DNA of 64,000 nucleotides from Buxus sempervirens. Taxonomy: Eukaryota > Streptophyta > Magnoliopsida > Buxales > Buxaceae. Positions 21,359 through 42,326 of the stretch are shown here, in pieces. The position numbers and the translations under genes were made by a program. Under the pieces are notes generated by a model that was given only the letters and a program-made list of their open reading frames with translations, searched no databases and had not been told where the DNA came from. The number at the start of each line of letters is the position of its first letter. Positions within the stretch are counted from its first letter, which is position 1. The stretch is taken from contig OX387184.1 in NCBI GenBank assembly GCA_947561395.2, forward strand, positions 32,540,766-32,604,765, read 5' to 3'.

Positions 21359-23162
21359 TGTGAGACATGGGAAAAAATCAAATCCAATGATTTCCTCAAT
21401 CATCACACGGGATCAAATTAAACAAAGAGTCGCCACCATTCAATTGAGGTGTGAATGGACACCAAAATATTAAATAAGCACAAAAGGCAAATTTTAGGGC
21501 AAAATATCCCTCCTAAAAAAAAACAACCAGAGATGAGTAAGGGGATTAGGTTATGAACAGGGGAAGGTGTTAGGCACCCCTATTCATCCACACAAGGTGG
21601 TTGCCAGGTATTGTTCATGTTTAAATAAAGGAAAAAGCTTGCTATAAAAATCACACAAAATCACAAAAAAAAGCAAAAATATATGGTTTTTTCATATGAA
21701 TAGTCTGATTGATCCAGAACTATCAAACATGATCATACCATTCCTAGGGTTTCATGATCAAAATAAAATTGAGATAAAATCCAATAAAATCAATTTAAAG
21801 TGAAAAATCCAAAAATCTGGCTTCAAGTCAAATTCTAGAAATCTAGAAAAATATGATTTTTATAAAATATTTCAAAATTGAACTTGAATAGTCCAAGATA
21901 TAGATAAAGCTCAAATTTCACATTAAATTTGAAAATCAAAACCAAAAATACCCACGTTTATGAAAAACACCAAAAGGGGAGAATTTAGACCGTAGGGTCT
22001 TCTCTCAATAATGAAAAACAATTTAAAAATCATCTCATGAAACCCTAGAATTTATTTTTAGGCTTCTTGATTCAGATCTACCATATTGATCATGATAAAT
22101 CCAAGATCCTAGCCTAAAATCACAAAAATCACGAAAACAGTGCTGTAGGTGCAAATATGTGAAAAATCCAAATTTTATCAAAAAGTGGGGATCTCATGCT
22201 ATAAACATCATAGATTCATGTTATTCATTCAGATATATCATAAAAAGCATTAAAACATGATCAGGATATTTAAAACAGCCATATCTCACAAATTAGAGCA
22301 CAAGGGGGCCTACCCTACGGATCCACCTGGTCCCTTTTCCCCTAGTTCTCTCTTCACGTTTTACGGCTAGAGAGACTCTTGAGGTACTTAGAGATAGGTT
22401 TGGTTACACAAACACAATCACAGGCTTTATTCTATGAAAAAGGAAAAAAAACAGATATGGGGTTCTATTCTAGGGATCCACCTGTTCCCCTTTCCCCTAG
22501 TTCTCTCTTCACGTTTTACGGCTAGAGAGACCCTTGAGGTACTTAGAGACAAGTTTAGGAATACAAAAACAGATATGGCCTTATTCTACAACAATAGAGA
22601 TGATCCTATTACATCTAAAATAAAAGACAGAAAAATAAAAGGGATAGGAGACTTACCTGGATTTAGCAGGCAGAGCAGCAGGGATTCTTCTCTTGTAGCT
22701 TCTTAGGATTCCTTAGACTCAAAATTTCGTGGCCCTAAGCTAGAGGAATGAGCCTCTATTTATAGACACACCCCAGGGGCAAGGTTGGTCCAGAAGGATA
22801 TATCCTGATTCTCAGGATAGAGTGAAATATAGAGATAATGCCCATCCATAGTGGCTTCAGCGAATAAAATACTTAATTCCTCGTTTAAAGATATATTGGA
22901 CTTCAAATAAAGCTCGGAAATCGAGAGAAGGACCAAACTTGCACGTGTCTGTAATGCCCGTAAATGATTTACGGTCCAATGGTGACCGTATTGGTACTAC
23001 GGGCGCGCCTGCCCGTAGATATTTTGCGGGCGAGATAGGCCCGTGAAGCCAATACGGGCAAAGCCTGTTCTTTCTATTTTTAGGCTTTTTTGACCTGTTT
23101 TAAGCTCTAATTACATGTTTTTATTATTTTCTCATTTGGCAGTGCAATTTGGGGTGTCTACA
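21359..23162 (-). repeat. 3' LTR of the Tat element (left end, 1,804 bp)
   Basis: The LTR sense strand is minus: it starts TGTAGACACCCC at 23162 and ends CATGTCTCACA at 21359. Against the right copy I see one base of length change in an A-run near 21520 and changes near 22520, 22588 and 23011. A TATA box reads CTATAAATAG on the minus strand (plus 22756-22765), with a palindrome array upstream of it (22956-23059). Small plus-strand frames inside are unsupported. Confidence 0.95.
22956..23059. repeat. palindrome array A, 3' LTR copy
   Basis: About four palindromes built from GCCCGTA and TACGGGC. The first (22958-22974) is perfect, CCGTAAA and TTTACGG around TGA. The array lies in U3, about 200 bp upstream of the LTR TATA box. 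Confidence 0.8.
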
Positions 23163-23177
23163 GCTGCCCCCTCTTTG
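23163..23177 (-). other. polypurine tract of the Tat element
   Basis: The minus-strand sequence AAAGAGGGGGCAGC directly precedes the 3' LTR start TGTAGACACC. It is the expected plus-strand primer. Confidence 0.8.
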
Positions 23178-23513
23178 CTGGTAATTGGAACCAATTACAA
23201 GCAGAGAGCAAAAAGACCCGCCAATTGCACTTTCTGAGATTCTTGTATAATCAATTGCACTTTGCAAGGATTAAAGGGATGATTTTTGAAAAAAAATAAT
23301 TGATTGTGGAAGATTTGCTAAGAAATCCCTCAGCTTAAGGGCCAAATCTTCCTCTCTCCTCTCACTGAGCACTTGTGGGCTATGAAGTGAGATTTGAGAC
23401 AAAATTTTTAAACAAAAGTGGGTAAGGTGGCAATCCTTGCAACTTACAACTAATATGTACATTAATCTCTTAAAAATGTGAGAAAATGATAAAAATATGC
23501 AATTTTTGGCTTC
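23178..23513. other. gene-free 3' untranslated stretch of the Tat element
   Basis: This lies between the polypurine tract and palindrome array B. It contains two copies of a CAATTGCACTTT motif (about 23221 and 23249) and A/T-rich DNA. No gene is visible. Confidence 0.5.
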
Positions 23514-23615
23514 GCCCGTATGGTGCTTACGGACAGACCCTGCCCGTAGAGGTTTCACGGGTAACTGGGACCGTAGGGGTTTTACGGGCGTCTGAAGCCC
23601 GTACTGAGTTTACGG
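23514..23615. repeat. palindrome array B, upstream of the antisense PMD gene
   Basis: Four palindromic units of the type CCCGTA(7-8)TTACGG lie about 26-28 bp apart, the same core as in the LTR array. They are about 380 bp upstream of the proposed first splice donor (23992) of the plus-strand gene that starts at 24767. No clear TATA box follows; a CTCTCTTCTT initiator-like tract does. Confidence 0.75.
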
Positions 23616-24766
23616 ATTTTACTCTCTTCTTAAGACTCGCGACCGCGGCCTTTCTTCATTTCTGCTCGTATTTGGCCCTAATTTCTTCTTGACCGTGCTT
23701 TCTTCTCCGGCCTCTTCTCCTTCTTCCTCAATAGTCCCTCCGACGATCATTGTTCTCCGGCGAGCTTCTCATTTTTTTCCGGCGATTCTCACTGTTCTCC
23801 GGTGACCATTGTTCCTTCGGTGAGCACTGTTCCTTCGGCGACTGTTGCTCTTCTCCCATTATCTGAACATTGCTTGCTCCCTTGGGTGATCCTTTGAAGC
23901 AGTAACCGACAGTGGACGGCTCCTGTGATTGAGCAACTCCTTGCTCTGGTGAGACCAAGCTCACATTCTTTTTTCGAAATTCAGATAAACAGGTATGTCT
24001 CTTTTTAGATTTTTCTGTTCATTAATGAGCTATTCCATTTCCTGTTTTGATTCTCTATCCTTGATTGTAGAAATTCTGAACTGTCTCATGATTCAACATC
24101 TGATTCTTATGCTAATACCCTTTTTTGAAAATTCTCATGACTATCGGCTAATCTTCAATGCATATTCGATCCATACTTGAGCTATTTAAATTGCTGAAAT
24201 TCTGATTATGGAGAATCCCTGTTTTGATCTTTGAATTGTTGTATTTGCTTCATGATTTAATGCCCAATTGTTCTGTCCATGATTCACCTGAGGCTTGTTA
24301 CCTATGTGTTTGCATGATTTTGAATGCCATGTGAGAATGCGTTCCTTTTATGCAATTTCCTGTTCTTGAGCATGACGCATATTCCCAAATTTTTGAAGTG
24401 CTTTAATATCTGTCTTTTTCGAAACTTGTCGTTTGTATCTGTATGGACTTTGAGAACATATTCCAAATTCCCATTTAATTCATAACTGATTATTCTGCAG
24501 ACAATGAGAACGTGAACTTCTTGTCCTTAATCTATCCAAATGTTGAATCATCCTGGTTAAAGCAGATGCCACCAAATAGAACAATAAAATTTCTTAAAAT
24601 AAACTCCTTTAGGGGATTCATGATTTGATCAGGAGTTTCTGAAACACTTTTCTTTCATTTCCCAATTTTTCCTTTTTCCTGCCAATCAATTAAACTTGGT
24701 TAGAATAAAGATCAAACAATAAAATTTTAACAAGAATAATTAACATCTCCCTGATTTGAACCGTAG
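23616..24766 (+). promoter_or_regulatory. 5' untranslated exon and intron of the antisense PMD gene
   Basis: After array B comes a GC-richer transcribed-looking stretch with repeated TTCTCCGGCGA-like words (23703-23850), ending in a good donor AACAG|GTATGT at 23992. A 775-bp T-rich stretch without a long open frame follows. It ends GAACCGTAG at 24766, directly before ATGGCC. A 5' UTR intron is common in plant genes and places the start codon at the first base of the next exon. The transcription start is not resolved. Confidence 0.5.
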
Positions 24767-27666
24767 ATGGCCCGCCTTAGATCAGCTTCTAGGGATCCTG
24801 CGGATGAGCCTTCCTCTTCGAGAGTTAGGCGTGATCCTGCTGATGTGGCCTCGTCTTCGAGGGCAGAGAGGGATTCAGATTCTGATGTCCCAGATCTCCC
24901 TTCTGGGGATTCGCGTGAGGCGACCCCAGAGGTATTCTCTAATCCTTCTGAATTTAACATTCTTTTACAAAAAACATCTCCTTGATCCTTTTCTTCTTTC
25001 CAATTGTTCCTTTAGCCGACAGTTGAGGCTTCGGGCAGAGATAGAAGCCGTATCAGACGCAGAGCTAGAGGCAGAGATGGAGGCCATGATGATGGCCATA
25101 GAGGAGGCCGCAGAGGGGGCCGTGGCAGAGATGAGGCCAGGACCAGGGTTGAGATCCCTGAGGAGGTGGCTGCCCAGATTAGGGATACCGATCTTCTGCA
25201 TGGTTTGAGGACTCATCCCTCAGCATGTGTTAGGGCGGATATCCCTTTGGAGTATCCGATGTCCCATTATAGGGGGAGCTGGGCCAGCTTCACTAGATTT
25301 TTGAGAGCTTGTAGTTCGGCCTATCGTCGGGAGCTAGGATTGTATGGTTTTGGTATGTTTATCACCATCCCGGACGTACGCTTAGATCGAGCCCTCATTG
25401 CTGCATTGTTGGAGAGGTTTTTCCTAGAGACATTGAGCTTCCACTTTCCAGATATTGAGATTGGGATCCGGCCTTCTGATTTCACACTCATCACCGGGAT
25501 TAGGATGATCGGTGATGTTATTACTGAGATGACTATGCCAGAGGCTGATGAGATTGCAGCTTATCTTGGATATATTGTGCTGCCTCCTGAGGCATGGGAT
25601 CGGGGGAGAGCTAGATTGTCTCTGACATGGCTGAGAGAGACTTTTAGTAGGAGGCAGTTTGGCCAGCTTGCTACCGGTGACCATGTGTTCCCCTTCGCCT
25701 TCCGATTTCTTTTTCTGTATATGATGGGATCCTGCTTCTTCCCAGAGGACACGACTTCAGTTAGTCCTCACTTCTTGAGTCTTCTGGGAGATTTGCAGCG
25801 GGCGAGGAGGTACGCCTGGGGCCCACTCATATTTGGTACTATTCTGGCTGGCCTGCGCCGATCAGTGAGTGGCCTCTCTACTTCCAGAGGGGCTGGAGTT
25901 GGGTGCAGGTTCTTCTGGCCCTTCTTGCAGGTGAACCTTATTTCCCTTCTTTTTCTTTATCTCTTTTATTTCTCATTTTATATTCTTCTGACTATTTTCT
26001 TCTTTCTTGCAGTTTTTTGCTAGGGTTTATATTCCCTATTTCCGCCCTACCTCTACGATGCCTGAGGAGACGTATCCCATGGCACTTAGATGGTGTCATG
26101 TAGAGCACGACTCTGAAAAGAGTCGTCCCAGGTCCGTCCGGGCCCACTTAGACAGGTTATACCGGTCTGAGGTAATCTTCTTTAATTTCTCTACTTTCTT
26201 CTTTTCTTTTCTTCCTGGATCGCATATCTGATGTCTTGTTCTGTTTTTCAGCTATTTGTCCCCAGGATGGAGGACATTCATGAGGTGCTAGCCCTGCAGG
26301 CAGCCAGAGATGATGCATTTGTCCCTGACCAGAGACGACAGAGATACCATTTCTTTATTGGTCAGCTGGGCAGCATCTGGTATTGCGGCAAGCGCTTCTT
26401 CTTTCAGCATGTGGGAGAGCCACGGATTCCTGCCATCCCGCCAGATACTACTCCTCTCTATCCTCCTATGCTTGTTGATCCTGCCCAGTTCTTAGATTGG
26501 ACTGAGGCAGAGACATTATTGGAGGAGGGTGACTATGATGCATGGTTCAGGCGATCTTCTGTTGGGTGCCTCATGTCACCCATGCCTGTCCGTGGCGGAG
26601 TCACGGAGATAGGAGGGGTAGTGATTAGGGCCTACGACACCACGGTATGCTTTCTTCTTTTGTGATCTTCTATTTCTATTTCATCTGTCGTTAGCATTTT
26701 TCTGACTTCTTTCTTCTCTATTTCAGGAGGCTCAGTTGGCAGAGATCCGGTCTCGCTATGCTGATCTAGAGCGCCAGCGTGACGCCGCGATCGCCGAGCG
26801 GGATGCCCTCTATATTACCATCTCAGATCTCCGGGGGCAGCTAGCCAGAACCCAGGGCCAGGAGGGTCCATCTGATGTACATGATCAGGCGGGTCCATCT
26901 GATGCACAGGACCAGGCGGGTCCATCTGATACTCAGGTTAATTTCTTCTTTTATTTCCATTCCTGCTTTTGTATTTGTTTGTCTTGTTCTAACTGAATTT
27001 TTCTCTTAGTTTCAGGCGTACACAGCTGGCCCTTCTTCACCTGCTTCACCCGTGCCTATGCATTTCCGGGATGAGGTGTTTTCTGTGGCACGGGTGGAGT
27101 TCGTGACGTCTCCTAGTCCAGTGGAGGTTCCTGCAGCAGAGCCTGAGGTCGAGGCTGATATTGTACCTGCTGCTGCTGATGTGCCAGAGTCTGCCCCAGT
27201 AGCTGAGACGGCTCCTGCTACATCTGCTGATGTTGATATGGATTCGGCTGTGGACGCCGCTGTGGTAGAGCCTACCGTGGAGACTGCGGTGATGGCGGAG
27301 GCTACAGCTGATCCTGTAGAGCCTGGGGTAGAGATGACTGCTACTGAGCCTGAGACCTCTGCCCTTGCTAGTCCTACTATGGAGGATATCGAGGAGACGC
27401 ATGCTGCTGTGGATACGTCAGAGGAGTCTTCCCGTACTGATTCTGATGTAGATACTTCAGGGTATGTCCCTCCTGATCATCCCACTGCTGGCCTTGTACC
27501 TTTATATATGTGGCATGATGTTCAGTCTGTTTTGAGCAGGATGCCGCGTAGCACAGCCCGCAATGTGGTGCGGCATGTCTTTGAGCGCAGGCGATCTTCA
27601 GGCCGAGGACGAAGCAGAGGACGAGGCCGTGGCAGTAGGGTCGGACCTGCATGGTCATTAGATTAG
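24767..27666 (+). CDS. antisense plant mobile domain (PMD) protein, spliced, 830 codons
   Basis: Exons 24767-24931, 25016-25930, 26013-26171, 26252-26644, 26727-26936 and 27016-27666 join into one open frame. All five coding introns are 79-84 bp, have GT...AG ends and fall between codons. Order along the protein: Asp/Ser/Arg-rich N-terminus (1-55); Gly/Arg-rich linker (about 65-95); PMD-like helical region (about 110-530), with marks such as LLERFFLETLSFHFPD, LSLTWLRETF and RARRYAWGPL; coiled coil (about 545-580); three GPSD repeats ending DQA or TQ; acidic Ala/Val/Glu-rich tail; RGRGRSRGRGRG end. PMD proteins in plants include the nuclear factors MAIN and MAIL1, which act in transposon silencing, and TE-borne relatives are known. 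It lies opposite to gag-pol in a young element with no disablement, so it is probably functional. Its biochemical activity is unknown. Confidence 0.8.
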
Positions 27667-27869
27667 GATTATTCATATACACTTGTATTTTTTGGTAAAA
27701 GTGATGTAAACATTCATGTATATAAAAGAAGTTTGATTTATTTTCATTTGTGTTCTTTCTTCTTTATTTATAGTATTTATTACCTGATGAATGTTAAAAC
27801 AGGGACAGGTGAAGCTTAGAAAACTAAGGAAATTAAAAATTCCCATTTTTTTGCATTTTTTCGAAGGAA
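27667..27869 (+). other. 3' flank of the PMD gene
   Basis: A/T-rich sequence between the TAG stop and array C, with GTATTTTTTGGTAAAAG and TGTATATAAAAG words usable as plant poly(A) signals. It is too short to hold another gene. Confidence 0.45.
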
Positions 27870-27997
27870 CCGTATTTATACTACGAGCAAGCCGTGCCCG
27901 TAAAATTACTACGGGCGTACCTTGCCCGTGAGGTTTTCACGGTCAGGCGTGTCCGTAATGCCTATACGGGCGCGCCTTGCCCGTAATATAATTACGG
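27870..27997. repeat. palindrome array C, upstream of the second antisense gene
   Basis: Five units follow at about 24-30 bp spacing, including GCCCGTA/TACGGGC arms, GCCCGTGA/TCACGG, and CCGTAAT/ATTACGG. The array ends 24 bp before a TATA box (28022-28029), so it sits in the proximal promoter. Confidence 0.85.
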
Positions 27998-28021
27998 AAT
28001 TTACTGCCTTGCGATTTTTTC

Positions 28022-28029
28022 TATATAAA
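28022..28029 (+). promoter_or_regulatory. TATA box of the second antisense gene
   Basis: TATATAAA lies 92 bp upstream of the first ATG (28121), giving a short leader of about 60 bases without another ATG. Palindrome array C is immediately upstream. Confidence 0.7.
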
Positions 28030-28120
28030 CTCCTAGGGAACGTCATTGTGACACTTTTATTGATTGGAAAACTCTCTGAGCACGTCTTTTCTCGCTTTCC
28101 TTGGCTTCTTTGGCGCTTCC

Positions 28121-29800
28121 ATGGCTTCCCCTACGCCGCTTTCTCCTGCCGTTGAATCTCCTCCTGCAAGACAACCTGTTAGATCAAAACCTCCTAATCT
28201 TACCAGGTACAATATTGTGGATTCCTTTTATGATAGATGGGTTAACTCCATGACCCTTGATGAGGAGATTCGTTGGGATTCCATCCACTTAGGACACATC
28301 CTACACCTCCCTAAAATTCCCTTTAAGTGGGAAATCATTGAAGCTTTGATAGGCCATTGGGTACCTGAGCTGAATCTCTTCCGTTTTGATGATAAAGAGA
28401 TGACTCCTACCATAGAAGAGATTGAAACCATCCTTGGCCTTAGATTTTCTGAAAAAGTTGTGAACCCACCCCTAAAGCTTAGTTATAAAAAAGAGGCTTC
28501 CACTTTCTTGGGTATAGGGAAGAAGGACTTAGGAAATTCTGATGCACTGTTGACCTTGTCCAAGACCTTTTTGACTGAAAAACTTCTGATGAGTAATGAC
28601 AAGGACTCTAGGTTTAATGCATTGACCCTGATAGTGGTCAATCAGCTGCTTTTTCCACGGGGTGATGACCAGGTTGACTTGGCTCTTATCTCAGTTATCT
28701 GTCAGGTTAGGGAACGTGAGAGGTTGGCCCCTATGATCCTAGCAGAGATATATCAGGCTCTTACTGATTGTTATTTCAGGAAGAAGAAACGCTTCCTTGC
28801 CTGCGCCCCTATCCTACAGGTAAAATATGCATGTATTTTTTTTTTTTTTTTTCTTCTCTCTTTTTTTCTTTTTGGAAATAAATTGAAATACTCCCTTTTT
28901 CTGCAGCTTTGGTTGCTTGACCATCTTAGCCAAGTTGAAGAAATAACTCGCCGCTTCTTTCCAAGATTGAAAGTTCCTGTTTTGATGAGCAATAGGGGAT
29001 GTCCTAACATCCAAGGTGGCAAGCAAGGCTGGTTCGCTTTCTTGGGTACTCTCCAGGATGATCAAGTGAGATGGCCTGGCACTTATCAGCCCACTCCAGA
29101 GACAGTGATCAGCTTTAGAGATAAAAACTTTCTGGTCTTAGCAGGCTTGAAATCTGCTGTTCTCTATCTTCCTTTGAGGGTTCTTCGGCAATTTGGAGCG
29201 ACCCAGGGAATTATGATTCCCACAGGTTATGAGAGCTTTATAGGGCCACTTACTTCAGCCACCATGGGGCTAAATGCTCAATTAATGAAAGAGTGGTCCT
29301 ATGTTTGCTTTCTGCGGGGTCCAGTCTTTTCTGAGTCCCATGTGAAGGACTATCACTTCTGGATCAAGGAACAGGTGCAGAGTCATGCCCCAGTACCAGA
29401 GGATCCTCCTGCAATTCTTCCTCCTACTTATGAGGACATTCTGGAGTCAGAAAGGGCAACCCATAAGCGGCTTCAACAAATATGGGTACGGGAGGCTCAA
29501 GAACTTAGGATAAAAGTCCTTGTTCTGGAGAGGAAGCTTGAAGAGCAGAAGTCTGGCCGCATTGCCATGGAGAAGAAACTTGAAGAACAAAGGCAGGCTC
29601 GTCGCTTTGAAGTCCGTGTGATGCGGAAGAAGTATCAGGATTCCTTGGCTGACCTTAGGGCGTTGAAGATCAAACTTTCTTTTTCAGATGAGGTCATCTC
29701 CTTTTTGAGTGATCCTGATGCAGAGGGTGCTTCTGGAATCATTGCAACTCAGGCAGCTAGGATTAGAGAGCTTGAGGAGCAGTTAGGGAGTAGGGATTAG
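28121..29800 (+). CDS. antisense DUF7745/PMD-like protein with C-terminal coiled coil, 530 codons spliced
   Basis: The start is the first ATG after the TATA box, in context CCATGGCT. Exons 28121-28819 and 28907-29800 are separated by an 87-bp GT...AG intron that falls between codons. Residues about 25-120 show the pattern of plant transposon-associated DUF7745/PMD-like domains (FYDRWVNSM, LIGHWVPELNLFRF, TPTIEEIETILGLRF). The middle is helical with WFAFLGTLQDD and FRDKNFLVLAGL. The last 100 or so residues are a long charged coiled coil (LVLERKLEEQ, MEKKLEEQRQ). It has no catalytic motif that I recognise. The gene is opposite to gag-pol and converges on pol. There is no stop or frameshift, which suggests a functional gene. 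The family name is from memory of the motif pattern. Confidence 0.75.
   Translation: MASPTPLSPAVESPPARQPVRSKPPNLTRYNIVDSFYDRWVNSMTLDEEIRWDSIHLGHILHLPKIPFKWEIIEALIGHWVPELNLFRFDDKEMTPTIEEIETILGLRFSEKVVNPPLKLSYKKEASTFLGIGKKDLGNSDALLTLSKTFLTEKLLMSNDKDSRFNALTLIVVNQLLFPRGDDQVDLALISVICQVRERERLAPMILAEIYQALTDCYFRKKKRFLACAPILQVKYACIFFFFFLLSFFLFGNKLKYSLFLQLWLLDHLSQVEEITRRFFPRLKVPVLMSNRGCPNIQGGKQGWFAFLGTLQDDQVRWPGTYQPTPETVISFRDKNFLVLAGLKSAVLYLPLRVLRQFGATQGIMIPTGYESFIGPLTSATMGLNAQLMKEWSYVCFLRGPVFSESHVKDYHFWIKEQVQSHAPVPEDPPAILPPTYEDILESERATHKRLQQIWVREAQELRIKVLVLERKLEEQKSGRIAMEKKLEEQRQARRFEVRVMRKKYQDSLADLRALKIKLSFSDEVISFLSDPDAEGASGIIATQAARIRELEEQLGSRD
28820..28906 (+). other. 87-bp intron without stop codon in the second antisense gene
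   Basis: The donor ACAG|GTAAAA and acceptor TTTCTGCAG bracket a T-rich tract. Its length is a multiple of three and it has no stop. If retained it adds 29 residues that include a run of Phe, Leu and Ile long enough for a membrane segment. Confidence 0.65.
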
Positions 29801-30871
29801 ATTCTTTCATCATTTTTTTTTTCTTTCATTTTTTCCATACCTTTTTTACAAAAGCAAACTCCATTAGTGGAAAGATATTAGATTTAATTCAAAAATAGGT
29901 TTTATATTATTGGCCTCAGAATTCTCAGATGCTTATAAAAACAGAAGTTTTATGAAAAAGTATTTGATTTCTCATCACTGGCCAAAGTATAGTTTTTTTT
30001 TTTTTTTTTGAAAGCTGATCCAAAACACTTAATCACATATAATTAAAGGAATTAAAATCAGGTTGAATAATGAAAAGGGTAGTCCAACCAATAGGGAAAG
30101 ACCAAATTTGTCTACCCCGTGACCTTTAGAATCATCCCCTAATGATTTTTCCTTCATGATTGGCCTTGCTAATCTGCTCAGTTTCCAGTGCTCATGCTGA
30201 TTTGAAACTTAGACCCCATGATCAACTCAACCCTTGATTCTTTTCTTCTTTTTTTTTTTTCTTTTTTTCTTTTTTTTTTTTTTCTTTTTTTTTTCTTTTT
30301 TTTTTTCTTGCCCTTCTCGCCCCTAGTGCCAATTACGGTTTTCACTAGGGTTGGCCTCTGCATTCCGTCATCACCAATCCTACTCTGAAAGTTGAATGAA
30401 TATACTAAAATCACCGAGGTCTTAATAATAGGACGAAACAAAGGCTAGGTTCGGTTTATGAAAGAAAAGGTATTAAAGGCTCAAAATTTTCTAAGTGTGA
30501 AAATGGGTCAACTGGACTTACAGTCATGGTGAATTCAATCTCATTCCCCTTCTTTTGTATTTGGCATTTATTTGCCCCTATTTTTTTCTTTTTCTTTTTT
30601 TTTTTTCAAATTTTTTCTTCTCTTTTTTTTTTTCTTTTTGCCCCTCTTGGCCTTGCCCTTATTGGCTTTGCCCCAGTATAAGGCTGTAAGTCCAGTTTGG
30701 GTTTAACAAAAAAATACGAACAGGCTCAAATTGGTTTGACTAGGGATTCAAATTTTGGGATATAAAGAACAATGGCCTCAGATCCTTTCCTAGTAATATT
30801 CATTCATGGAAAATATCTCTTTACTACATCAGAGTTAATTGGCTCAGGAAAATCCTTCCCATCCATTTCTG
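29801..30871. other. gene-free T-rich region between convergent transcripts
   Basis: This lies between the plus-strand gene's stop and the end of pol on the minus strand. It contains several long T runs (for example 29994-30009, 30244-30310 and 30582-30640). Two related blocks (around 30240-30380 and 30570-30700) share a pyrimidine run followed by TGCCC(T/C)TCTCG- or TGCCCCTCTTGG-like words. It probably serves as 3' UTR for both sides. The short minus-strand frame in the T-run is compositional. Confidence 0.5.
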
Positions 30872-33800: not shown

Positions 33801-34390
33801 TGGAATTGCTTAACCACTTCATCTTTAACCTTCAATGTCCATTCAGGTTTTAACCTTCTCAGTTTCTGCTTAACTGGCTTAGAGTCTGGTAGAATGGGTA
33901 GCCTGTGCACCACCATATCTGTGTCTAACCCCGGCATATCCCGATATGACCATGCAAACACATCTTCATAATCAGCCAAAAATCGTATCATTTCATCCCG
34001 CTGTACCTCAGATAGGCATACCCCAATCTTCACTATTTTTGGGTCATCTTCGGTCCCTAGGTTGATTGATATGGTCTCTTCAATATTGGGTTGGACCCCC
34101 TTTTCATGACGCTCTAATTGATATGTGATTTCTTTTGGAACGTCGTCTTCTTCGTCCTCGGTCTCTTCTTCAACCCCCATTAGGTCAAAGTCGAGCTCAA
34201 GGTCGAAGTCATACTCATCCTGATCAAATTCCGTTTGTTTATATGGTTCATAAATGGTTTGGACCTTTTTGAAAACTTTATCTTTTCTAGAAAAAACTGA
34301 AAAATCTTTTTGTGTTTTTTGAGAGCCTTCTACAAAATCTTTCCCTGAAGACGAAGGCTCATTAAAGCTTTCAGGAAAAGGGCATTCCAC
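30872..34390 (-). CDS. pol: Tat pol: reverse transcriptase, RNase H, archaeal-type RNase H, integrase
   Basis: Open frame of 1,172 codons with no ATG at its start; it begins where the gag-protease frame ends, in the -1 frame. An acidic spacer (1-160) is followed by RT (about 165-360, active site YVDD near 326). A degenerate first RNase H follows (about 470-590) in which the expected catalytic Asp after LILYL is absent. A second, complete RNase H (about 622-745) has FFDGAAN, NIAEYEA, YGDSS and FADAL. Integrase (about 840-1110) has an HHCC finger, then Asp in WGIDVIG, Asp in VTDNAS and Glu in GAVEAAN. A second RNase H of archaeal type is a Tat hallmark. The frame stops early at 30872 next to a run of five C at 30886-30890; similarity to family C-termini appears to continue in another frame to about 30800, so this copy has probably lost its last two dozen or so residues. 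Confidence 0.92.
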   Translation of the reverse strand: MECPFPESFNEPSSSGKDFVEGSQKTQKDFSVFSRKDKVFKKVQTIYEPYKQTEFDQDEYDFDLELDFDLMGVEEETEDEEDDVPKEITYQLERHEKGVQPNIEETISINLGTEDDPKIVKIGVCLSEVQRDEMIRFLADYEDVFAWSYRDMPGLDTDMVVHRLPILPDSKPVKQKLRRLKPEWTLKVKDEVVKQFQAGFLAVSTYPEWLANIVPVPKKDGKVRMCVDYRDLNKASPKDDFPLPHIDILVDNTAVHSLFSFMDGFSGYNQIKMAKEDQEKTAFITPWGTFHYTVMPFGLKNAGATYQRAMTALFHDMIHKEMEVYVDDMIAKSCEEEDHLISLKKVFDRLRKYSLRLNPAKCVFGATSGKLLGFIVSRRGIEIDPAKAKAIIEMPSPRTEREVRGFLGRIQYISRFIAQLTAICEPIFKLLRKNNPTVWNDDCQEAFDTIKEYLLNPPVLVPPTPGRPLILYLSVLETSMGCVLGQHDDTGRKERAIYYLSKKFTEYEAKYSPLEKTCCALVWATQRLRHYFLSHSTLLISRMDPLKYLFEKPALTGRTAKWQLLLSEFDLTYITQKAIKGQAIADHLAAHPLPEYQPLKTNFPDEAILFAEEEEGESSWQMFFDGAANMNGNGIGAVLIKPDGAHIPIAVKLRFQCTNNIAEYEACIIGLQAALDHEVEELDVYGDSSLIIFQTTGEWKTKDHKLIPYHQYLEEISTKFTRISFNYMPRAKNQFADALATLASMVSMPEGVDIRPLEIEVRDEPAYCLVLEETPEEEVPWFQDIKNFLNDRSLPENVTSTEKRTIQRLAGQFLLSGGQLYKRSHNDILLRCVAKTESERIVETVHGGVCGPHMNGHMLAKKILRLGYYWSTMEHDCYMHVKRCHLCQVYADNKHAPPSELHSMTSPWPFSMWGIDVIGMISPKASNGHRFILVAIDYFTKWVEAASYANITSSHVLKFLKHNIICRYGLPSAIVTDNASNLKNKDMRKMCEQFQITHHKSAPYRPKMNGAVEAANKNIKKIIQKMVVSFKDWHEMLPLALHAYRTSIRTSTGATPYSLVYGMEAVLPVEVEIPSLRVLMEAELEEAEWIQSRHDQLNLIEEKRLKALSHGQLYRKRMARAYNKKVKPRTFQEGNLVLKKILPFLEDPRGKFKPNWEGPYVVKKVYQGVLSS

Positions 34391-37300
34391 TAATGGAGTT
34401 TTTTTTTTTTAGAAGCCATGTCTGTTTGCCAAACAAACGCGGCTTCAAAAGTAAGGGGAGTTTCCTCCCAATTATTCAGAATGAAAGAATCTGGGGCAGG
34501 GATACAAGCCTGCTCCTCGAGCTCATGGTCTGCATCAGAAATCACCAATACTGGGTGAGTTGCATTGCCTGCTTCTTCGGTAGGGCCAGTTCCAGATGGA
34601 ATTTCTACTGCAGCCCAGTCAATAAAAGGTAGCTCCTCTGCTACTTTTTCTTGGTTGCCTTCTGTCATGGCAAAGAATGCCCCTACGTCCTCAGAAAAAT
34701 CCTGCTTTTGTTCGGCTTGTGGCCCAGGCCCCCCAGATGCTTGTGGAGGTGGAGGTGGAACATATGGTTGTATTGTGGAGGGTTTGGGTTTCTGGAATGG
34801 GTTGACATTGTAGTATGGAGGTTTAGACTGATCCTCAGGAGGAGACAGCTGAATCATGTGAGACGGCTTAGGAAAAGTTTCCCTGATGTGTGGGAATTTC
34901 ATAGCTTCTATCTGCCCCTGACTTTTCCATTTCCTTGGCTTGGACCCCAATCCTGCTCTGTGAACCATCTTCTTAACCTGAACTGGTTCTATCCTTCCTT
35001 GTAGGTTAATCCCCAGACCTTTTCCAGGGTGAAAATGGTACTTTTCTAATACATTTTTGACCATTTTTTCAGCACAGGTCAATTTTCCTTCTTTTTGCTG
35101 ATACCCCCCAGGTATATAATTCACAGCTTCAAATTGAAAAGAGTGAAACGCCATTTTATCTGCTGTCATTTCCGTGTTAATGCAGGGTACATCAGGGGAC
35201 CACATGGGGGGAACCAAATTTTCGGCCAGGACGGTAATCACCTTTTGCCCTCTAATATACTTGACTCTTTGGTGGAGGGTAGATGGTATGGCCCTAGCCG
35301 TATGAATCCACGGCCTTCCTAGGAGTAGGTTGAAAGCCGCAGGTATATCCATCACTTCAAATGTGATGTTGAAAATATACGGTCCAATTGTGACCGGCAG
35401 TTCAACCTCCCCTAGGGAGTGTGTCTTAGAGCTGTCAAATGCTCTTATAATTCTTCCATTTTGTTTTATTTTGTTTCGCTCCAGATTGAGCTTAACAAAG
35501 GTTACTAATGGGCAGACATTGAGGGCTGACCCATTATCAATCAAGACCCGGGCTATCATGCAGCCCTTACTGAGCACAGCAATGTGCAATGGATCCACAT
35601 GATGGTATCCTGCTGGACTAATTTCCGTTTCAGAAAAGGTTATAACATTATGAGATAATATTTGCCCAACCATCCGGCCTAGTTGGTCTGGTTCAATGTT
35701 TTTAGGTACATGGGCCCCCTGGAGTATTCTTAACAAGGAGTCCCTATGTTTTTCTGAGTTTAACAATAGGCCCAGTATTGAGATCTGGGCAGGGACTTTG
35801 TTCAACTGTTCGATGACATTGAACTCACTCTTTTTTATTACCTTAATGAGGTCAGCAGCCTCACTGTCAACTACCTGGGGGGTATCTTCCCCTACCTTGG
35901 CCTTTCCTTTATTTTTTCCTTCTTCTTTATCCTTCTCTGTTTCTTTCTGTTTTTCTTCCACCCCTACACACTTTCCTGACCTCATCATAAGGTTTACTTC
36001 TTCCTTGCTTTCAACTGCAGGGCATGTAGTGGTGAATGCTTCACTGTAGTTCCATGGTACAGCCGATTCAATGTAGGAAGGCTTAGGGACGTTTACCACC
36101 AATGGGGGAAGTTTGGAATTGGCAATGGAAGTCTGAGTAATGGGAACATTAACAACCAATGGAGGAAGTTGTTTTGGTTGTGGGTTTGCAGAAGTGACTG
36201 ATGCACTAAGGGGGTCACAATTTATGACCAATGGTGGCTTAGACTGAATGGGCGGAGTAAAAGTGGATGGATTATAATTAACGACCAAAGGTGGGTTGGC
36301 AATGTTCATCTGGGCCATGAGGGATGAGACCCGGTCCAAAGATGAGCTAATGTTCTTTGCAGCACCATCATTCCCCTTTGAAATCATGTTTATTTCTTTG
36401 CCTTCACTTCTCTTGTCAAAATATACTTTGACTGTTGTCCCTATGGGAGCAATTAATTGAGATGGGTCAAAGGTTATTTTGTCAGAAGAGATGACTCCTA
36501 TGACATTAGATGGGCCTGTCCCGTGATGTTGGGGCAGTGGGTTTTGTCCAATATCTGTTCTTGGAGGATTGGAAGCCCCTGTATTGAAAGACAGGGTATT
36601 CTGGTCTAGTAAATCCTGAATGGCATGTTTCAAAGGCCAGCACTTGTCTGTAGGGTGCCCAGGTGCACCCATATGGTAATCACAAGTGGTGGAGGGGTCA
36701 AAATTTCTCCCCTTAGATGCATTAGGATTAGGTTCTCTTAAGGTGATATACCCTCCTTGCAATAAAGTGGGCAGCAATTGAGAGGGAGTCATTGGAATAG
36801 GGGTAAAAACCCTATTTCTCCTTGCTGCAAAATAGGCATCCTTTTCCTCTTTGGTAAAAACCCTTTTTTGGTCTGAAGGTGCTGTTGGAACATTAACCCT
36901 CATAGGGGCCTGGGTAGGTGGAGATGGAGTAGGAAAATGAGCCGGTACATTGATTTGTATGGGTTTGTTAGGGCCAGATGGTGGCTGTACCATGTTTACC
37001 TCACCCTCCTTCTTGTTCCCATTCTTTTTTGTTCCGCTTCCTTTCTTTAGGTTGGGGTCATGCTGGCTAATCATGGCAGAGTGGTCAATTATCTTGCCTG
37101 ACCTTATTCCATCCTCAATTCGGTCAGCCACCTGAACCAAAGCTGCAAAATTAGTGGTGGTCTGACCCACCAAGTGGCTGTAGAATGGTTGACCCAAAGT
37201 GCTTATGAAGGTAGAAATCATTTCCTGTTCTAGCATGGGTGGCCTGACCTGGGAGGCTGTCTCCCTCCACCTCTTGGCATATTGCCTTACAGTTTCTTCC

Positions 37301-38085
37301 CTTCCTTTGCTCATTCTCATGACGTCGTACCTATCTGGCATGATCTCTGAATTGAACCGGTATTGAGCTAGGAAGGCATCGGCTAGGTCCTTCCATCTTT
37401 TGATCTTCCCATGGTCCAGAGTGGCGAACCATCTTAATGCGGTTCCTGTCAGGCTCCTTTGGAAAAGTTGGATCAAGATGCCCTCATCCTGCCCGAACTG
37501 GCATAGGGCACCGCAATACAACTTTAGGTGGCTCATGGGGCAACCAGTGCCATCATACTTGTCCAAGTCTGGACACTTAAACTTAGCCGGCAGGTTAACA
37601 TTGGGGTATAGGCACAGGTCTTCAAAATTGGTGCCTCCAAAGTTGTTTACCCCTTTGACTTCCCTAAGTTCATCTTGGATCATTTCTAGCTTATGCATGA
37701 ACTTTCTTTCAACCTCTTCCCTTATCCTTTCCTTTTCCTTAGCCTTGTTTGATTCAGCTGTCTCATCCCTGGTCAGTATAGGTTCAGGGGTGGGTTCATA
37801 GACAGGTTCAGGAGTTGGTTGCACTGGAGGTGGAACATTGACTTGGGGTGGAGGTGCAGGGTTGGATGTGGATGCCTGGTTCTGGGCCTGCATTTGTTGG
37901 GCCTGCACTTGTTGGGCCTGTACTGACAGTATGTTCTCTAGCATTCGGGCTAGTCCTGCCACTTGTTCTTGGAGTAGAACGACATCAGGATGAGGAGCAT
38001 CAACTTCATCTTCAATGGGATTCATGGCTCGAGCTCTTGATCTGGTTACAGGAGCTATGATTGCGAGTGTATTAGTACCTGGCAA
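34390..38085 (-). CDS. gag: Tat gag-protease polyprotein with G-patch, 1,231 codons
   Basis: Starts at ATG (MPGTNTLA) and is intact. An N-terminal coiled coil with QAQQ repeats (35-75) and Pro-rich spacer lead to a Retrotrans_gag capsid domain (about 165-300, with LTGTALRWFATL and YAKRWRE). A modified zinc knuckle CDYHMGAPGHPTDKC is near 468. Next come repeated PPLVVN motifs (about 590-670) and a retropepsin-like protease with DNGSALNV near 850 and LLGRPWIH near 922. A G-patch-like segment GKGLGINLQG follows near 1015-1030. It assembles the particle and matures the polyproteins. It ends at a TAG just after 12 A; pol follows in the -1 frame. Confidence 0.92.
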   Translation of the reverse strand: MPGTNTLAIIAPVTRSRARAMNPIEDEVDAPHPDVVLLQEQVAGLARMLENILSVQAQQVQAQQMQAQNQASTSNPAPPPQVNVPPPVQPTPEPVYEPTPEPILTRDETAESNKAKEKERIREEVERKFMHKLEMIQDELREVKGVNNFGGTNFEDLCLYPNVNLPAKFKCPDLDKYDGTGCPMSHLKLYCGALCQFGQDEGILIQLFQRSLTGTALRWFATLDHGKIKRWKDLADAFLAQYRFNSEIMPDRYDVMRMSKGREETVRQYAKRWRETASQVRPPMLEQEMISTFISTLGQPFYSHLVGQTTTNFAALVQVADRIEDGIRSGKIIDHSAMISQHDPNLKKGSGTKKNGNKKEGEVNMVQPPSGPNKPIQINVPAHFPTPSPPTQAPMRVNVPTAPSDQKRVFTKEEKDAYFAARRNRVFTPIPMTPSQLLPTLLQGGYITLREPNPNASKGRNFDPSTTCDYHMGAPGHPTDKCWPLKHAIQDLLDQNTLSFNTGASNPPRTDIGQNPLPQHHGTGPSNVIGVISSDKITFDPSQLIAPIGTTVKVYFDKRSEGKEINMISKGNDGAAKNISSSLDRVSSLMAQMNIANPPLVVNYNPSTFTPPIQSKPPLVINCDPLSASVTSANPQPKQLPPLVVNVPITQTSIANSKLPPLVVNVPKPSYIESAVPWNYSEAFTTTCPAVESKEEVNLMMRSGKCVGVEEKQKETEKDKEEGKNKGKAKVGEDTPQVVDSEAADLIKVIKKSEFNVIEQLNKVPAQISILGLLLNSEKHRDSLLRILQGAHVPKNIEPDQLGRMVGQILSHNVITFSETEISPAGYHHVDPLHIAVLSKGCMIARVLIDNGSALNVCPLVTFVKLNLERNKIKQNGRIIRAFDSSKTHSLGEVELPVTIGPYIFNITFEVMDIPAAFNLLLGRPWIHTARAIPSTLHQRVKYIRGQKVITVLAENLVPPMWSPDVPCINTEMTADKMAFHSFQFEAVNYIPGGYQQKEGKLTCAEKMVKNVLEKYHFHPGKGLGINLQGRIEPVQVKKMVHRAGLGSKPRKWKSQGQIEAMKFPHIRETFPKPSHMIQLSPPEDQSKPPYYNVNPFQKPKPSTIQPYVPPPPPQASGGPGPQAEQKQDFSEDVGAFFAMTEGNQEKVAEELPFIDWAAVEIPSGTGPTEEAGNATHPVLVISDADHELEEQACIPAPDSFILNNWEETPLTFEAAFVWQTDMASKKKKLH
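34399..34410 (-). promoter_or_regulatory. 12-A run at the gag-protease/pol junction, candidate frameshift site
   Basis: On the minus strand twelve A residues occur three codons before the gag-protease stop, and pol is open in the -1 frame across the junction. Such a homopolymer permits ribosomal or transcriptional slippage, giving less pol than gag. No pseudoknot was modelled. Confidence 0.6.
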
Positions 38086-38298
38086 AATAAAGATAAAATA
38101 TCAGTGCCAATTTAATCTCATTCACATGTCTAGGTATACTTATGTGCAAGCTGGGTGAACACGAGTTTGGATTTTTTTATTTATTTATTTATTTGCTTCT
38201 TTTTTTTTATTTTTTTTATTTTATTTTATTTTATTTTTTTGAATTGAATTGTTGGAATATTCTAGGGCTTCCCACAGATCCCACAAAAGAGAGAAAGG
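38086..38298 (-). other. short leader between minisatellite and gag start
   Basis: It holds a run of ATTT and TTTTA repeats at 38170-38240 (plus strand) and the approach to the gag ATG. There is no other gene. Confidence 0.5.
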
Positions 38299-39110
38299 TC
38301 TGAAATTCAAAGGCTTTCAGAGGCCCGGGTTTTTTTTTTTTTTTTTTTTAAAAGGTCTGAAATTCAGAGGCTTTCAGAGGCCCAGGGATATTTTTGGAAA
38401 AGGTCTGAAATTCAGAGGCTTTCAGAGGCCCAGGGATGTTTTGATGAAAGTCTGAAATTCAAAGGCTTTCAGAGGCCCAAAAGGAAAAGGTCTGAAATTC
38501 AAAGGCTTTCAGAGGCCCAAAAGTTCTGAAATTCAAAGGCTTTCAGAGGCCCAAAAGATCTGAAATTCAAAGGCTTTCAGAGGCCCAAAAGTTCTGAAAT
38601 TCAAAGGCTTTCAGAGGCCCAAAAGAAAAAGGTCTGAAATTCAAAGGCTTTCAGAGGCCCAAAAATTCTGAAATTCAAAGGCTTTCAGAGGCCCAAAAGA
38701 AAAAGGTCTGAAATTCAAAGGCTTTCAGAGGCCCAAAAGTTCTGAAATTCAAAGGCTTTCAGAGGCCCAAAAGAAAAAGGTCTGAAATTCAAAGGCTTTC
38801 AGAGGCCCAAAAGTTCTGAAATTCAAAGGCTTTCAGAGGCCCAGAAGATCTGAAATTCAAAGGCTTTCAGAGGCCCAGGGATTTTTGAGAAAAAGTCTGA
38901 AATTCAAAGGCTTTCAGAGGCCCAGGGATTTTTTGAGAAAAAGTCTGAAATTCAAAGGCTTTCAGAGGCCCAGGGATTTTTGAGAAAAATCTGAAATTCA
39001 AAGGCTTTCAGAGGCCCAGGATTTTTTTTGAAAAATCTGAAATTCAAAGGCTTTCAGAGGCCCAAGAGTTTTGAAAAAGTCTGAAATTCAAAGGCTTTCA
39101 GAAGCCCAAG
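38299..39110. repeat. 20-copy minisatellite of hairpin-forming units in the Tat leader
   Basis: Twenty copies of a core of about 27 bp, TCTGAAATTCAAAGGCTTTC followed by AGAGGCCC, are separated by 3 to 25 variable bases (AAAAG, AGGGATTTTTGAGAAAA and similar). Within each core TCTGAAA and TTTCAGA are perfect inverted arms around nine bases. The middle copies have the shortest spacing (33-40 bp). The array lies in the untranslated leader upstream of gag. It is not a CRISPR array. Confidence 0.92.
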
Positions 39111-39234
39111 GAACCTTTCTCTCACATTTTTTTTTTGAAGCATTTTATTCAAACTTGTTTCTCTTTATCATTATTTAAAGGTTAAAAGAATATTTTAGTG
39201 GGAAAAACTGATTAAAGTTGAATATTCCGAGAAA

Positions 39235-39371
39235 CCGTATACACAGTACGGTCCAGCCCTGCCCGTATTCAAATTACGAGCAAGCCGTGACCGTATGGAA
39301 AACACGGGCGAGCCCAGCCCGTATAGGTTATACGGGCAAGCCCAGCCCGTGTACTAAATGCGGTTTTACGG
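39235..39371. repeat. palindrome array D, in the Tat leader
   Basis: Five units of the GCCCGTA/TACGGGC family. The best is at 39317-39337 with 9-bp perfect arms GCCCGTATA and TATACGGGC around GGT. The array lies just upstream (minus-strand sense) of the minisatellite and about 1.15 kb before gag. Confidence 0.85.
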
Positions 39372-40604
39372 AACTCTGTTATATTTTTCCAGTTTTTACA
39401 TGGTTTGATCACTTTAATTGCTCATCCAAACGTACGGTTCACCCATTGCAGAGCTTCTAAACTGTCCCAAAGTGGACCTTGGCCTATTTGTAAAAACACA
39501 TGCTTGGGAGGGCACATGTACCCTCCAAATTGACACCATACTCAAGAATTTGGTACCCTTTTGTTGACTCTTGTATGAACATCGGGTAGGATTGATTCTA
39601 AACAGAGTTAGAGACTCTTCCTATGGGCTGTACCAATTTTAAAAACATGCATATTTTGGGACCAATTTTATCCCGAACCAATGGGTACCATGACACCCCT
39701 ATGACATGAAAATAATGTAAAACAATAGGGTTACCTTGTTACCTTGTTTACCTTCAATATAGCATCCGCATTATGCCCTGGTTTGTAAGCCATGCATACG
39801 GCCTTCCCACAATCATACAAACCCCATATTCCCACGTAATTGTGTAATTTAGCCAAAAACGTGTAACTCCACCTTCAAGCGTAGGGGTTTTGGGTTTTGG
39901 CTTAATGGCAACTTAGCACTCAAGCCTAATGATGACCAGAATCCCAGATCCACGTTATCATCACATCATTAGCTCAAAGTTCTAAGGTGAATGTTTTCAC
40001 TTTCGCTTTCCGAAGTATCGACCTCGGTGCGCCAAGCTACACACATTCTTGTTCAACTTCCTATAGGTGATAGGTAGGCCGTGTAAAAAAATAAAAGGTG
40101 CACAGTGCATTGTAAACATAGGTCACATTCACAACGTCCCAGACCCTTGCCACTCTTTTCGCAGCCATGCATAAACAAACCAAGGCATAATAGGAAAGCA
40201 TATTTTAAATAAACAAGTAAATAAAGCAATCCTATAGCACCCAAAACATGCTCATAAAAAATCATCCAAATCATGTCAACATATGCTCATATTATATATC
40301 CAAAATACACCATAGAAAGCATGCTGAAAATTAGAACATGCATATTAAAATACAGCAAGAAATAAGCATGGTTTATCAAAATAAACCTCCCCTATGCATG
40401 TTTCTAGAAACAATCCTATGAATCAGAATTAAGCATGTTTCTACCCCCATGGATTCTTAAGCAATAAATCAGATTTACAACCTATCCCACATGCTTAAGA
40501 ACACCAAACAGCAAGCAAAACAAAGACATGCTAAAAACACAAAATAGCAAGCAAATCAAAAAAATCAAAAACATGAACAAACACCAAAAAGGCTCAAATC
40601 CACA
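39372..40604 (-). other. untranslated 5' leader of the Tat element
   Basis: There is no convincing open frame on either strand; some Ogre elements have an extra ORF here, but I do not see one. The stretch is A/T-rich with several GCATG words. Confidence 0.55.
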
Positions 40605-40624
40605 AGTCCCCAGCAGAGTCGCCA
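40605..40624 (-). other. primer binding site of the Tat element
   Basis: On the minus strand, two bases after the LTR end, the sequence reads TGGCGACTCTGCTGGGGAC. This is a primer-site form I recall from Tat/Ogre elements, for which an arginine-tRNA primer has been proposed. The tRNA was not checked here. Confidence 0.75.
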
Positions 40625-42022
40625 GTTGTGAGACATGGGAAAAAATCAAATCCAATGATTTCCTCAATCATCACACGGGATCAAATTAAACAAAGAGTCG
40701 CCACCATTCAATTGAGGTGTGAATGGACACCAAAATATTAAATAAGCACAAAAGGCAAATTTTAGGGCAAAATATCCCTCCTAAAAAAAAAAACCAGAGA
40801 TGAGTAAGGGGATTAGGTTATGAACAGGGGAAGGTGTTAGGCACCCCTATTCATCCACACAAGGTGGTTGCCAGGTATTGTTCATGTTTAAATAAAGGAA
40901 AAAGCTTGCTATAAAAATCACACAAAATCACAAAAAAAAGCAAAAATATATGGTTTTTTCATATGAATAGTCTGATTGATCCAGAACTATCAAACATGAT
41001 CATACCATTCCTAGGGTTTCATGATCAAAATAAAATTGAGATAAAATCCAATAAAATCAATTTAAAGTGAAAAATCCAAAAATCTGGCTTCAAGTCAAAT
41101 TCTAGAAATCTAGAAAAATATGATTTTTATAAAATATTTCAAAATTGAACTTGAATAGTCCAAGATATAGATAAAGCTCAAATTTCACATTAAATTTGAA
41201 AATCAAAACCAAAAATACCCACGTTTATGAAAAACACCAAAAGGGGAGAATTTAGACCGTAGGGTCTTCTCTCAATAATGAAAAACAATTTAAAAATCAT
41301 CTCATGAAACCCTAGAATTTATTTTTAGGCTTCTTGATTCAGATCTACCATATTGATCATGATAAATCCAAGATCCTAGCCTAAAATCACAAAAATCACG
41401 AAAACAGTGCTGTAGGTGCAAATATGTGAAAAATCCAAATTTTATCAAAAAGTGGGGATCTCATGCTATAAACATCATAGATTCATGTTATTCATTCAGA
41501 TATATCATAAAAAGCATTAAAACATGATCAGGATATTTAAAACAGCCATATCTCACAAATTAGAGCACAAGGGGGCCTACCCTACGGATCCACCTGGTCC
41601 CTTTTCCCCTAGTTCTCTCTTCACGTTTTACGGCTAGAGAGACTCTTGAGGTACTTAGAGATAGGTTTGGTTACACAAACACAATCACAGGCTTTATTCT
41701 ATGAAAAAGGAAAAAAAACAGATATGGGGTTCTATTCTAGGGATCCACCTGTTCCCCTTTCCCCTAGTTCTCTCTTCACGTTTTACGGCTAAAGAGACCC
41801 TTGAGGTACTTAGAGACAAGTTTAGGAATACAAAAACAGATATGGCCTTATTCTACAGCAATAGAGATGATCCTATTACATCTAAAATAAAAGACAGAAA
41901 AATAAAAGGGATAGGAGACTTACCTGGATTTAGCAGGCAGAGCAGCAGGGATTCTTCTCTTGTAGCTTCTTAGGATTCCTTAGACTCAAAATTTCGTGGC
42001 CCTAAGCTAGAGGAATGAGCCT

Positions 42023-42032
42023 CTATTTATAG
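42023..42032 (-). promoter_or_regulatory. TATA box of the Tat 5' LTR
   Basis: CTATAAATAG on the minus strand, about 400 bp into the LTR and about 190 bp downstream of palindrome array A. Confidence 0.65.
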
Positions 42033-42222
42033 ACACACCCCAGGGGCAAGGTTGGTCCAGAAGGATATATCCTGATTCTCAGGATAGAGTGAAATATAGA
42101 GATAATGCCCATCCATAGTGGCTTCAGCGAATAAAATACTTAATTCCTCGTTTAAAGATATATTGGACTTCAAATAAAGCTCGGAAATCGAGAGAAGGAC
42201 CAAACTTGCACGTGTCTGTAAT

Positions 42223-42326
42223 GCCCGTAAATGATTTACGGTCCAATGGTGACCGTATTGGTACTACGGGCGCGCCTGCTCGTAGATATTTTGCGGGCGA
42301 GATAGGCCCGTGAAGCCAATACGGGC
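42223..42326. repeat. palindrome array A, 5' LTR copy
   Basis: Same as 22956-23059 with one base changed in the third unit. It begins with the perfect CCGTAAA/TTTACGG palindrome at 42225-42241. Confidence 0.8.

Follow-up and report, generated by a model that had tools for sequence, protein, structure and literature searches.

Arrays of a 21-bp palindrome at the LTRs, antisense PMD genes and gag leader of an Ogre/Retand-type retrotransposon of Buxus sempervirens are probable DNA operators

In a 64,000-nucleotide stretch of the Buxus sempervirens genome (assembly GCA_947561395.2, contig OX387184.1, forward-strand positions 32,540,766 to 32,604,765; here called the window), we examined a palindrome that forms arrays in a Tat-type long terminal repeat (LTR) retrotransposon. 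This element carries two accessory genes, antisense genes 1 and 2, for proteins with a plant mobile domain (PMD). Five arrays, one in each LTR, one upstream of each antisense gene and one in the leader upstream of gag, are very probably DNA operators under purifying selection, common to these parts of the element and to related repeats. The idea that their binder is dimeric and is either of the two PMD proteins that the element itself encodes has, in our judgement, an even chance of being right. Both statements come from sequence analysis.

The unit is 21 bp long and consists of two 7-bp arms around a 7-bp centre (GCCCGTA-N7-TACGGGC). There are 22 units, in arrays of 4, 4, 4, 5 and 5 (Table 1), or 18 without the second LTR copy. 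The 5' and 3' LTR arrays differ by a single C-to-T change (42280 versus 23013), and the second LTR array (4 units) was omitted from all 18-unit statistics as a near-identical copy. Half-site direction alternates every 13, 14 or 15 bp. The TATA box of the LTR follows its array after 192 bp, and that of gene 2 (TATATAAA at 28022) comes 22 bp after the array end. For gene 1, 1150 bp separate the array from the ATG (24767), and no TATA box was seen. The leader array, about 1.15 kb before the gag open reading frame (ORF), has an extra half-site at 39367 that is out of register. Only this array of the five was detected by Tandem Repeats Finder (score 50); ordinary repeat finders largely miss such arrays. 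An earlier, sequence-only reading of the window had claimed five clusters, with units of about 17-21 bp at a spacing of 24-30 bp. All five were found, none more than a few bases off the coordinates it gave, and the palindromic unit was confirmed with a sharper geometry, 21 bp at a 27-28 bp period. The gene 2 array was correctly placed upstream of a TATA box, but the distance was overstated by that reading as 24 bp. It had arrays accompany every transcription unit; the leader array is not at a demonstrated promoter.

The window contains the arm sequence GCCCGTA 20 times (18 within arrays), whereas 100 dinucleotide shuffles gave 1.81 ± 1.55. When at least 12 of 14 arm matches were required, 19 sites were found, 18 of them in arrays (100 shuffles: mean 0.01, maximum 1). 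Under leave-one-array-out models, each of the 22 units outscored the rest of the window, with held-out scores of 15.9-26.5 bits; the best non-array place, at 18787, scored 14.8 bits. Over gaps 0 to 25, the full model gave 22 sites at gap 7, a single one at gap 25 and none at any other. The in-register slots flanking the arrays scored between -7.7 and -25.5 bits, indicating that the arrays end abruptly, with no decaying units at their edges.

Among the 18 units, identity was 90% in the half-site cores and 81% in the arms but only 32% in the centres (29% shuffled, P 0.036), and C4 and G5 of the half-site were invariant (36/36). The observed/expected CpG ratio was 1.07-1.71 in the arrays versus 0.36 in the rest of the element. 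Mirrored arm positions paired at 86.5%, compared with 87.5% after shuffling (414 of 500), and the arm changes comprised 25 one-sided and 2 two-sided cases. This independent deviation on the two sides is the pattern of a dimer binding site and not of an RNA stem. A rival reading is that the palindromes form hairpins in the genomic RNA, with a role in packaging, stability or splicing control. Folding of the sense RNA indeed exceeded that of shuffles (leader z=-8.5, LTR -5.5, gene 1 -2.6, gene 2 -9.5), and a genome RNA that begins at the LTR TATA box would contain the leader array; however, any inverted repeat folds strongly. The 18 units showed no compensatory stem changes or covariation of arm pairs, and there was no preference for wobble, which accounted for 8 of the 25 mismatches on one strand and 9 on the other. 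Among 131 distinct units from all the related copies analysed, only position 2 of 7 had excess symmetry, and none was found at the other six arm and three centre positions (lowest P 0.067). The arrays of gene 2 and of a second repeat (group X, below) lie just upstream of TATA boxes, which also argues against RNA hairpins, and we consider them very unlikely. Because the edges are sharp, the arms are constrained around near-random centres, and mirrored compensation is absent, the units look like DNA sites and not RNA stems.

Across the genome assembly (676,531,615 bp), the exact palindrome was found 11,266 times with a gap of 7 and, over gaps 8-14 combined, 13 times; its reversed control was found 0 times. 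We examined a first sample of 20 stretches round the first listed matches, all on one contig (contig 1), and counted all 20. Arrays were present in 19 of these stretches, which had been chosen for their matches (L021 was without an array), and the units were 27-28 bp or multiples of this apart. Nearly all arrays fell into two LTR groups, X and Y; one array in L017 and those in L022 could be placed only weakly. Close copies of the window element are also present: the best 40 of 2181 candidate LTR matches were 98-100% identical, and among these 40 were 13 LTR pairs, including that of the window, at a distance of 19.1-19.7 kb. The sequence-only reading had found no palindromes elsewhere. This is correct for the window save an isolated 12/14 site at 18787, outside the element, but not for the genome, where other LTR copies and families carry the motif in abundance. 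Its term "element-specific" has to be dropped, as the motif is common to related copies, at least one other LTR-like repeat, and derivatives without genes. A two-unit pattern was also searched in bacterial and viral collections, with no match in viral_contigs and 12 loci in genome_contigs, which we took as chance; at the model threshold, 5 of the 12 had no unit and 7 had 1 to 4, several overlapping by 9-bp steps and GC-rich.

Group Y is the window's own kind, with LTRs 74-94% identical. Nine Y LTR copies were compared with the window LTR; they include both LTRs of one element (L032 and L033) and two LTRs in L024, and partial matches in L020, L029 (849-1162), L033 (second) and L035 (second) were not used. 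Changes were found at 34/360 core, 45/144 outer arm, 124/252 centre, 87/180 spacer and 1216/4131 flank positions, which corresponds to 9% in the half-site cores, 49% in the centres and 29% in the flanks. The array position, a check named beforehand, was kept in all nine copies; L029 lacks unit 1, and L024 has additional 28-bp units. In three relatives of the leader, 5/150 core, 18/105 centre, 7/84 spacer and 158/1125 flank positions were changed. Group X consists of a repeat of 2.4 kb that has three arrays and, like an LTR, ends in TG..CA; it is known as repeat copies and not as a two-LTR element. Apart from the arrays, blastn found no match of 100 bp between X and those window pieces that were searched. 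In 8/8 copies examined, one X array begins at a distance of 13 bp from an opposite-strand TATA box (CTATTTATAG); this count omits L017 and L022, whose copies are partial, and the second L020 copy. The X copies L034 and L036 differ by whole 28-bp units. In L017-L018, a DUF7745 ORF and a PMD ORF lie near X, which does not imply that they belong to one element with it. As DNA sites, the operator arrays claimed earlier for the LTR and both antisense genes find good support in the rigid spacing, the constrained cores and the fixed TATA distance in X.

A neutral minisatellite, palindromic by chance and spread by recombination, would also change in whole 28-bp steps, as the arrays do in L024, L034 and L036, and the centres are slightly more alike within an array (38%) than between arrays (30%). 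Such a repeat does not fit near-random centres beside fixed cores and spacing, in the element and its relatives, or the contrast between gap 7 and gaps 8-14 in the genome, and we regard this origin as extremely improbable.

The whole element is assigned to the Ogre/Retand branch of Tat (Ty3/gypsy) by published domain criteria. An additional RNase H between RNase H (RH) and integrase is a hallmark of Ogre and Retand, and a PMD is reported as an extra ORF in 57% of Ogre elements (PMC6317226). The pol ORF of the window element has this order, with reverse transcriptase (RT) at 222-382, RH at 445-575, RVT_3 at 630-748 and integrase at 841-1012. PF10536 was found in both antisense genes, and these PMD genes point toward Ogre rather than the whole Ogre/Retand branch. 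The two LTRs differ by 3 substitutions and 1 indel; with the plant substitution rate commonly used, 1.3e-8, the insertion would be of the order of 60,000 years old.

Table 1. Features of the retrotransposon and its palindrome arrays (window coordinates; TSD, target site duplication; aa, amino acids).
Feature	Position	Strand	Details
Candidate operator array, 3' LTR	22956..23059	.	4 units; start-to-start 28, 27, 28 bp
Candidate operator array, 5' LTR	42223..42326	.	4 units; start-to-start 28, 27, 28 bp
Candidate operator array upstream of gene 1	23514..23617	.	4 units; 28, 27, 28 bp
Candidate operator array, gene 2 promoter	27868..27999	.	5 units; 28, 28, 27, 28 bp
Candidate operator array, gag leader	39233..39365	.	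5 units; 28, 28, 28, 28 bp
Antisense gene 1	24767..27666	+	7 coding exons, ~805 aa, PMD PF10536 E=9.9e-24
Antisense gene 2	28121..29800	+	530 aa after removal of 87-bp intron 28820-28906
Whole retrotransposon	21359-42429	-	TSD GCCTA at 21354-21358 and 42430-42434
3' LTR	21359..23162	-	1804 bp; LTR-pair comparison; ends TG..CA
TATA of 3' LTR	22764	-	
5' LTR	40627..42429	-	1803 bp; TATA (minus) 42031; splice donor CAG/GTAAGT 41925
Polypurine tract	23163..23174	-	
Primer binding site	40607..40624	-	TGGCGACTCTGCTGGGGA
pol	30872..34408	-	RT, RNase H, additional RNase H, integrase, in this order
gag ORF	34390..38100	-	G-patch domain

The exon chain of gene 1 has GT..AG introns (33% GC) and one open frame, with 8 possible boundary choices that differ by few residues. 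Judged by eye, its protein has an acidic stretch, Arg-Gly-rich ends and a heptad-like stretch. The gene 2 product contains PF24924 (DUF7745; 1.6e-25) and PF10536 (7.3e-16) when searched with the intron read through; the intron was revealed by alignment to 12 homologues, all distant, of which 11 are named Nicotiana or Solanum and one is unnamed. Since the introns are oriented with the plus strand, both genes would be transcribed antisense to the genome RNA. A search with a gene 1 exon gave a single match, a MAIN-like protein of soybean, and a profile search added none. The two proteins share 22% identity over 170 residues only. A long C-terminal helix is predicted for the gene 2 protein at 437-521, with a predicted local distance difference test score (pLDDT) of 73-89 over 441-520 in the AlphaFold model. 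No sequence relative of gene 2 was found in the PDB, and none was confirmed in viral_contigs. PMD-A clades are said to be encoded exclusively by Gypsy elements (PMC5418596).

The gag and pol ORFs overlap in different frames, so that a frameshift or splice is needed. The leader contains a second, imperfect palindrome (TCTGAAA-N9-TTTCAGA) in 20 copies at 38299..39102, 34-57 bp apart and nowhere else in the window, and long tandem arrays lie beside the leader regions of stretches L025, L028 and L033. A strong splice donor (41925, minus strand) about 100 bp past the LTR TATA box and an acceptor-like CAG at about 38080 (minus strand), just before gag, suggest that the long leader, in which both kinds of palindrome lie, is spliced out of the gag mRNA as an intron; the leader array of 21-bp units is probably intronic. 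Elsewhere in the window, Copia element fragments on the plus strand and a separate Transposase_32 (PF20167) ORF occupy 45616-53113 and 54279-55694. Two copies of a 69-bp tandem array (45061-45339 and 56819-57097), 96-97% regular, lie about 11.8 kb apart.

Two derivatives show what happens to the arrays when the genes are lost. The first (L032:2854 to L033:5225) is young and 12.3 kb long, with TSD ATTAT and LTRs 99.17% identical (14 mismatches). A tblastn search of this copy recovered gag and no piece of RT, integrase or PMD; without RT, the copy must have spread by enzymes from elsewhere. The LTR and leader arrays were kept, and the gene 1 and 2 arrays are gone along with the genes; similarity to the gene 1 promoter region stops just short of the expected gene 1 array. 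This can mean that the sites are usable in trans or that the PMD proteins are not needed for movement. The second derivative, L057, has RT pieces at 91.5 and 94.5% identity and an integrase at 89%. In L057:6600-8180, a gene-1-type array is now 34 bp before the gene 2 ATG. Arrays that persist without working PMD genes in cis fit a trans-acting factor and a host factor equally. The deletion in L057 ends at or near arrays, as might be expected of sites for silencing or chromosome functions (a small-RNA target, an insulator, an integrase or recombination site) with no part in transcription control. The half-sites contain CG and CHG cytosines, and tandem repeats are possible targets of RNA-directed DNA methylation (PMC10398659). 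On the other hand, the arrays sit at TATA boxes in gene 2 and X, and the first derivative lost two arrays together with their genes and kept the others; we therefore give such a role little probability.

For operators, the question becomes which protein binds them. Cooperative binding by a dimeric factor is probable, and the arrays upstream of both PMD genes speak for a binder encoded by the element. The alternative is that a transcription factor of the host, such as a NAC/VOZ-class protein, binds them, so that host input is borrowed for the LTR and accessory promoters. NAC proteins have the core CGT(G/A), with half-sites facing inward, and the VOZ site is GCGT-N7-ACGC (PMC6321167). In the window units, inward-facing half-sites read CCGT(A/G) in 32/36 cases. 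The arrays close to TATA boxes (22 bp in gene 2, 13 bp in X) would suit an ordinary activator, and a host factor also accounts for other PMD genes without the motif nearby and for gene-less copies that retain it. Against this, CGT(A/G)..(C/T)ACG in the element occurs at N9 (20/20) and never at N3, N5, N7 or N11, so that the VOZ spacing is not found. The NAC palindrome has a gap of N5. In the window, CGT-N7-ACG occurs twice and the N5 form 0 times, with none inside the element. Gap and flanks thus differ from the NAC/VOZ sites, as do the arrays of 4-5 units at a fixed period. The near-complete assignment of the arrays in the 19 sampled stretches (first listed matches, one contig) to two LTR groups is a further point against a host factor, which we hold to be possible, if short of probable. 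Of the two, a PMD protein of the element is somewhat more likely as the binder.

Several results weigh against operators bound by an element-encoded PMD protein. At the level of the sites, arm conservation is partly circular, because the units were picked by similarity, and one half-site of LTR unit 3 is altered from CGG to CAG in 4/9 relatives. Arm position 2/20 is symmetric in 76 cases versus 61 shuffled (P=0.004) among the 131 units. The contrast is weaker in X, where pairwise differences were 161/1680 in the core, 297/1176 in the centre and 20258/64144 in the flank (outer arm, 110/672; spacer, 108/588). The leader array is at no known promoter. At the level of the protein, the domain search found no known DNA-binding domain in either antisense protein, the AlphaFold models are too weak for a PMD fold (mean pLDDT 40.9 and 51.1), and Foldseek gave no match in the PDB (best E=2). 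L057 retains its arrays although gene 1 is absent and gene 2 has lost about 600 bp, at positions 44-643, which make up most of its PMD part, and in both derivatives arrays persist without working PMD genes in cis.

Other PMD genes also fail to show a general link. We sampled about 1.3 kb upstream of each of 20 genes, hand-picked from 117 listed matches (117 of 8448 candidates scored), a small and score-biased set. An array was present upstream of 1/20 (L042). The absence of an array within about 1.3 kb in 19/20 indicates that PMD and motif are not generally tied; the gene 1 array itself, more than 1.3 kb from its PMD match, would escape this sampling. No other palindrome array was found in the 19 remaining stretches (shuffles, 0 of 100) by a scan of limited sensitivity, which called an array only where three units with similar arms lay within 170 bp. 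Among these genes are tandem pairs about 3.4 kb apart with frames of 534-590 aa (C12:33557562/33560985, C10:32400939/32404363 and C9:33187484/33190929); a palindrome array was seen in 1/6 of their 1.3-kb stretches (L042) and in none of the other five.

The closest functional parallel is VANC of the Arabidopsis VANDAL (Mutator-like) elements, an element-encoded accessory protein that recognises a short motif in the non-coding tandem repeats of its own family (PMC5735166, PMC10398659). Those repeats gain and lose copies, as do the repeats described here. VANDAL, however, is a DNA transposon with a 9-bp non-palindromic motif, whereas the present element is a retrotransposon with a 21-bp palindrome of fixed 7-bp gap and 27-28 bp period; its accessory proteins are PMD and not VANC, and their binding is suggested by analogy. 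In foamy viruses, Tas is a single retroelement-encoded factor that acts on both the LTR and an internal promoter (PMC4929722). The accessory genes here differ in being antisense and two in number, and the likeness is not based on sequence. Antisense accessory genes between pol and the 3' LTR are described for Grande (gene23) and Retand (TRP28, in place of PMD), with a regulatory role proposed for them (PMC7264820, PMC11963269). The Grande gene23 product is nuclear, and the gene has its own antisense promoter (PMC7264820). The accessible portions of these two accounts mention no operator common to the LTR and the antisense promoter. Loss of the host PMD proteins MAIN and MAIL1 lowers the expression of genes with a common promoter motif, "DOWN", present as CATGCAGTTT in the MORC1 promoter (PMC7156037, PMC9899485). 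These are host PMD-C genes with an unrelated motif, and, as far as the available parts of these papers go, direct DNA binding has not been demonstrated there either. Among the titles and abstract openings of the open-licence PMC literature, we found no prior description of such arrays.

We propose that the 21-bp palindromes are sites for a dimeric DNA-binding factor and that the 27-28 bp period, with half-sites alternating every 13-15 bp, would allow dimers to bind cooperatively in a row. Targets of this factor would be the LTR promoter, the promoters of both antisense genes and the gag leader, along with other copies that keep the sites, including gene-less ones. It may be one of the element's PMD proteins, controlling its own gene as well as the LTR in an autoregulatory circuit of the kind that the sequence-only reading inferred, in which case it would probably be an activator or an anti-silencing factor that recognises its own family as VANC proteins do. 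The full picture is that of an Ogre/Tat self-recognition regulon, in which an antisense-encoded PMD protein, bound cooperatively as dimers to the family palindromes, activates the LTR and the two accessory promoters or relieves their silencing and also works in trans for gene-less derivatives. We advance it tentatively, as possible but short of probable. With candidate operators in the LTR and before both genes, the function of the Tat/Ogre accessory genes becomes a simple binding question. The arrays would also bear on the role of the host proteins MAIN and MAIL1. If the regulon is real, PMD would be a new class of sequence-specific DNA-binding domain, and the element would provide a retrotransposon counterpart of VANC.

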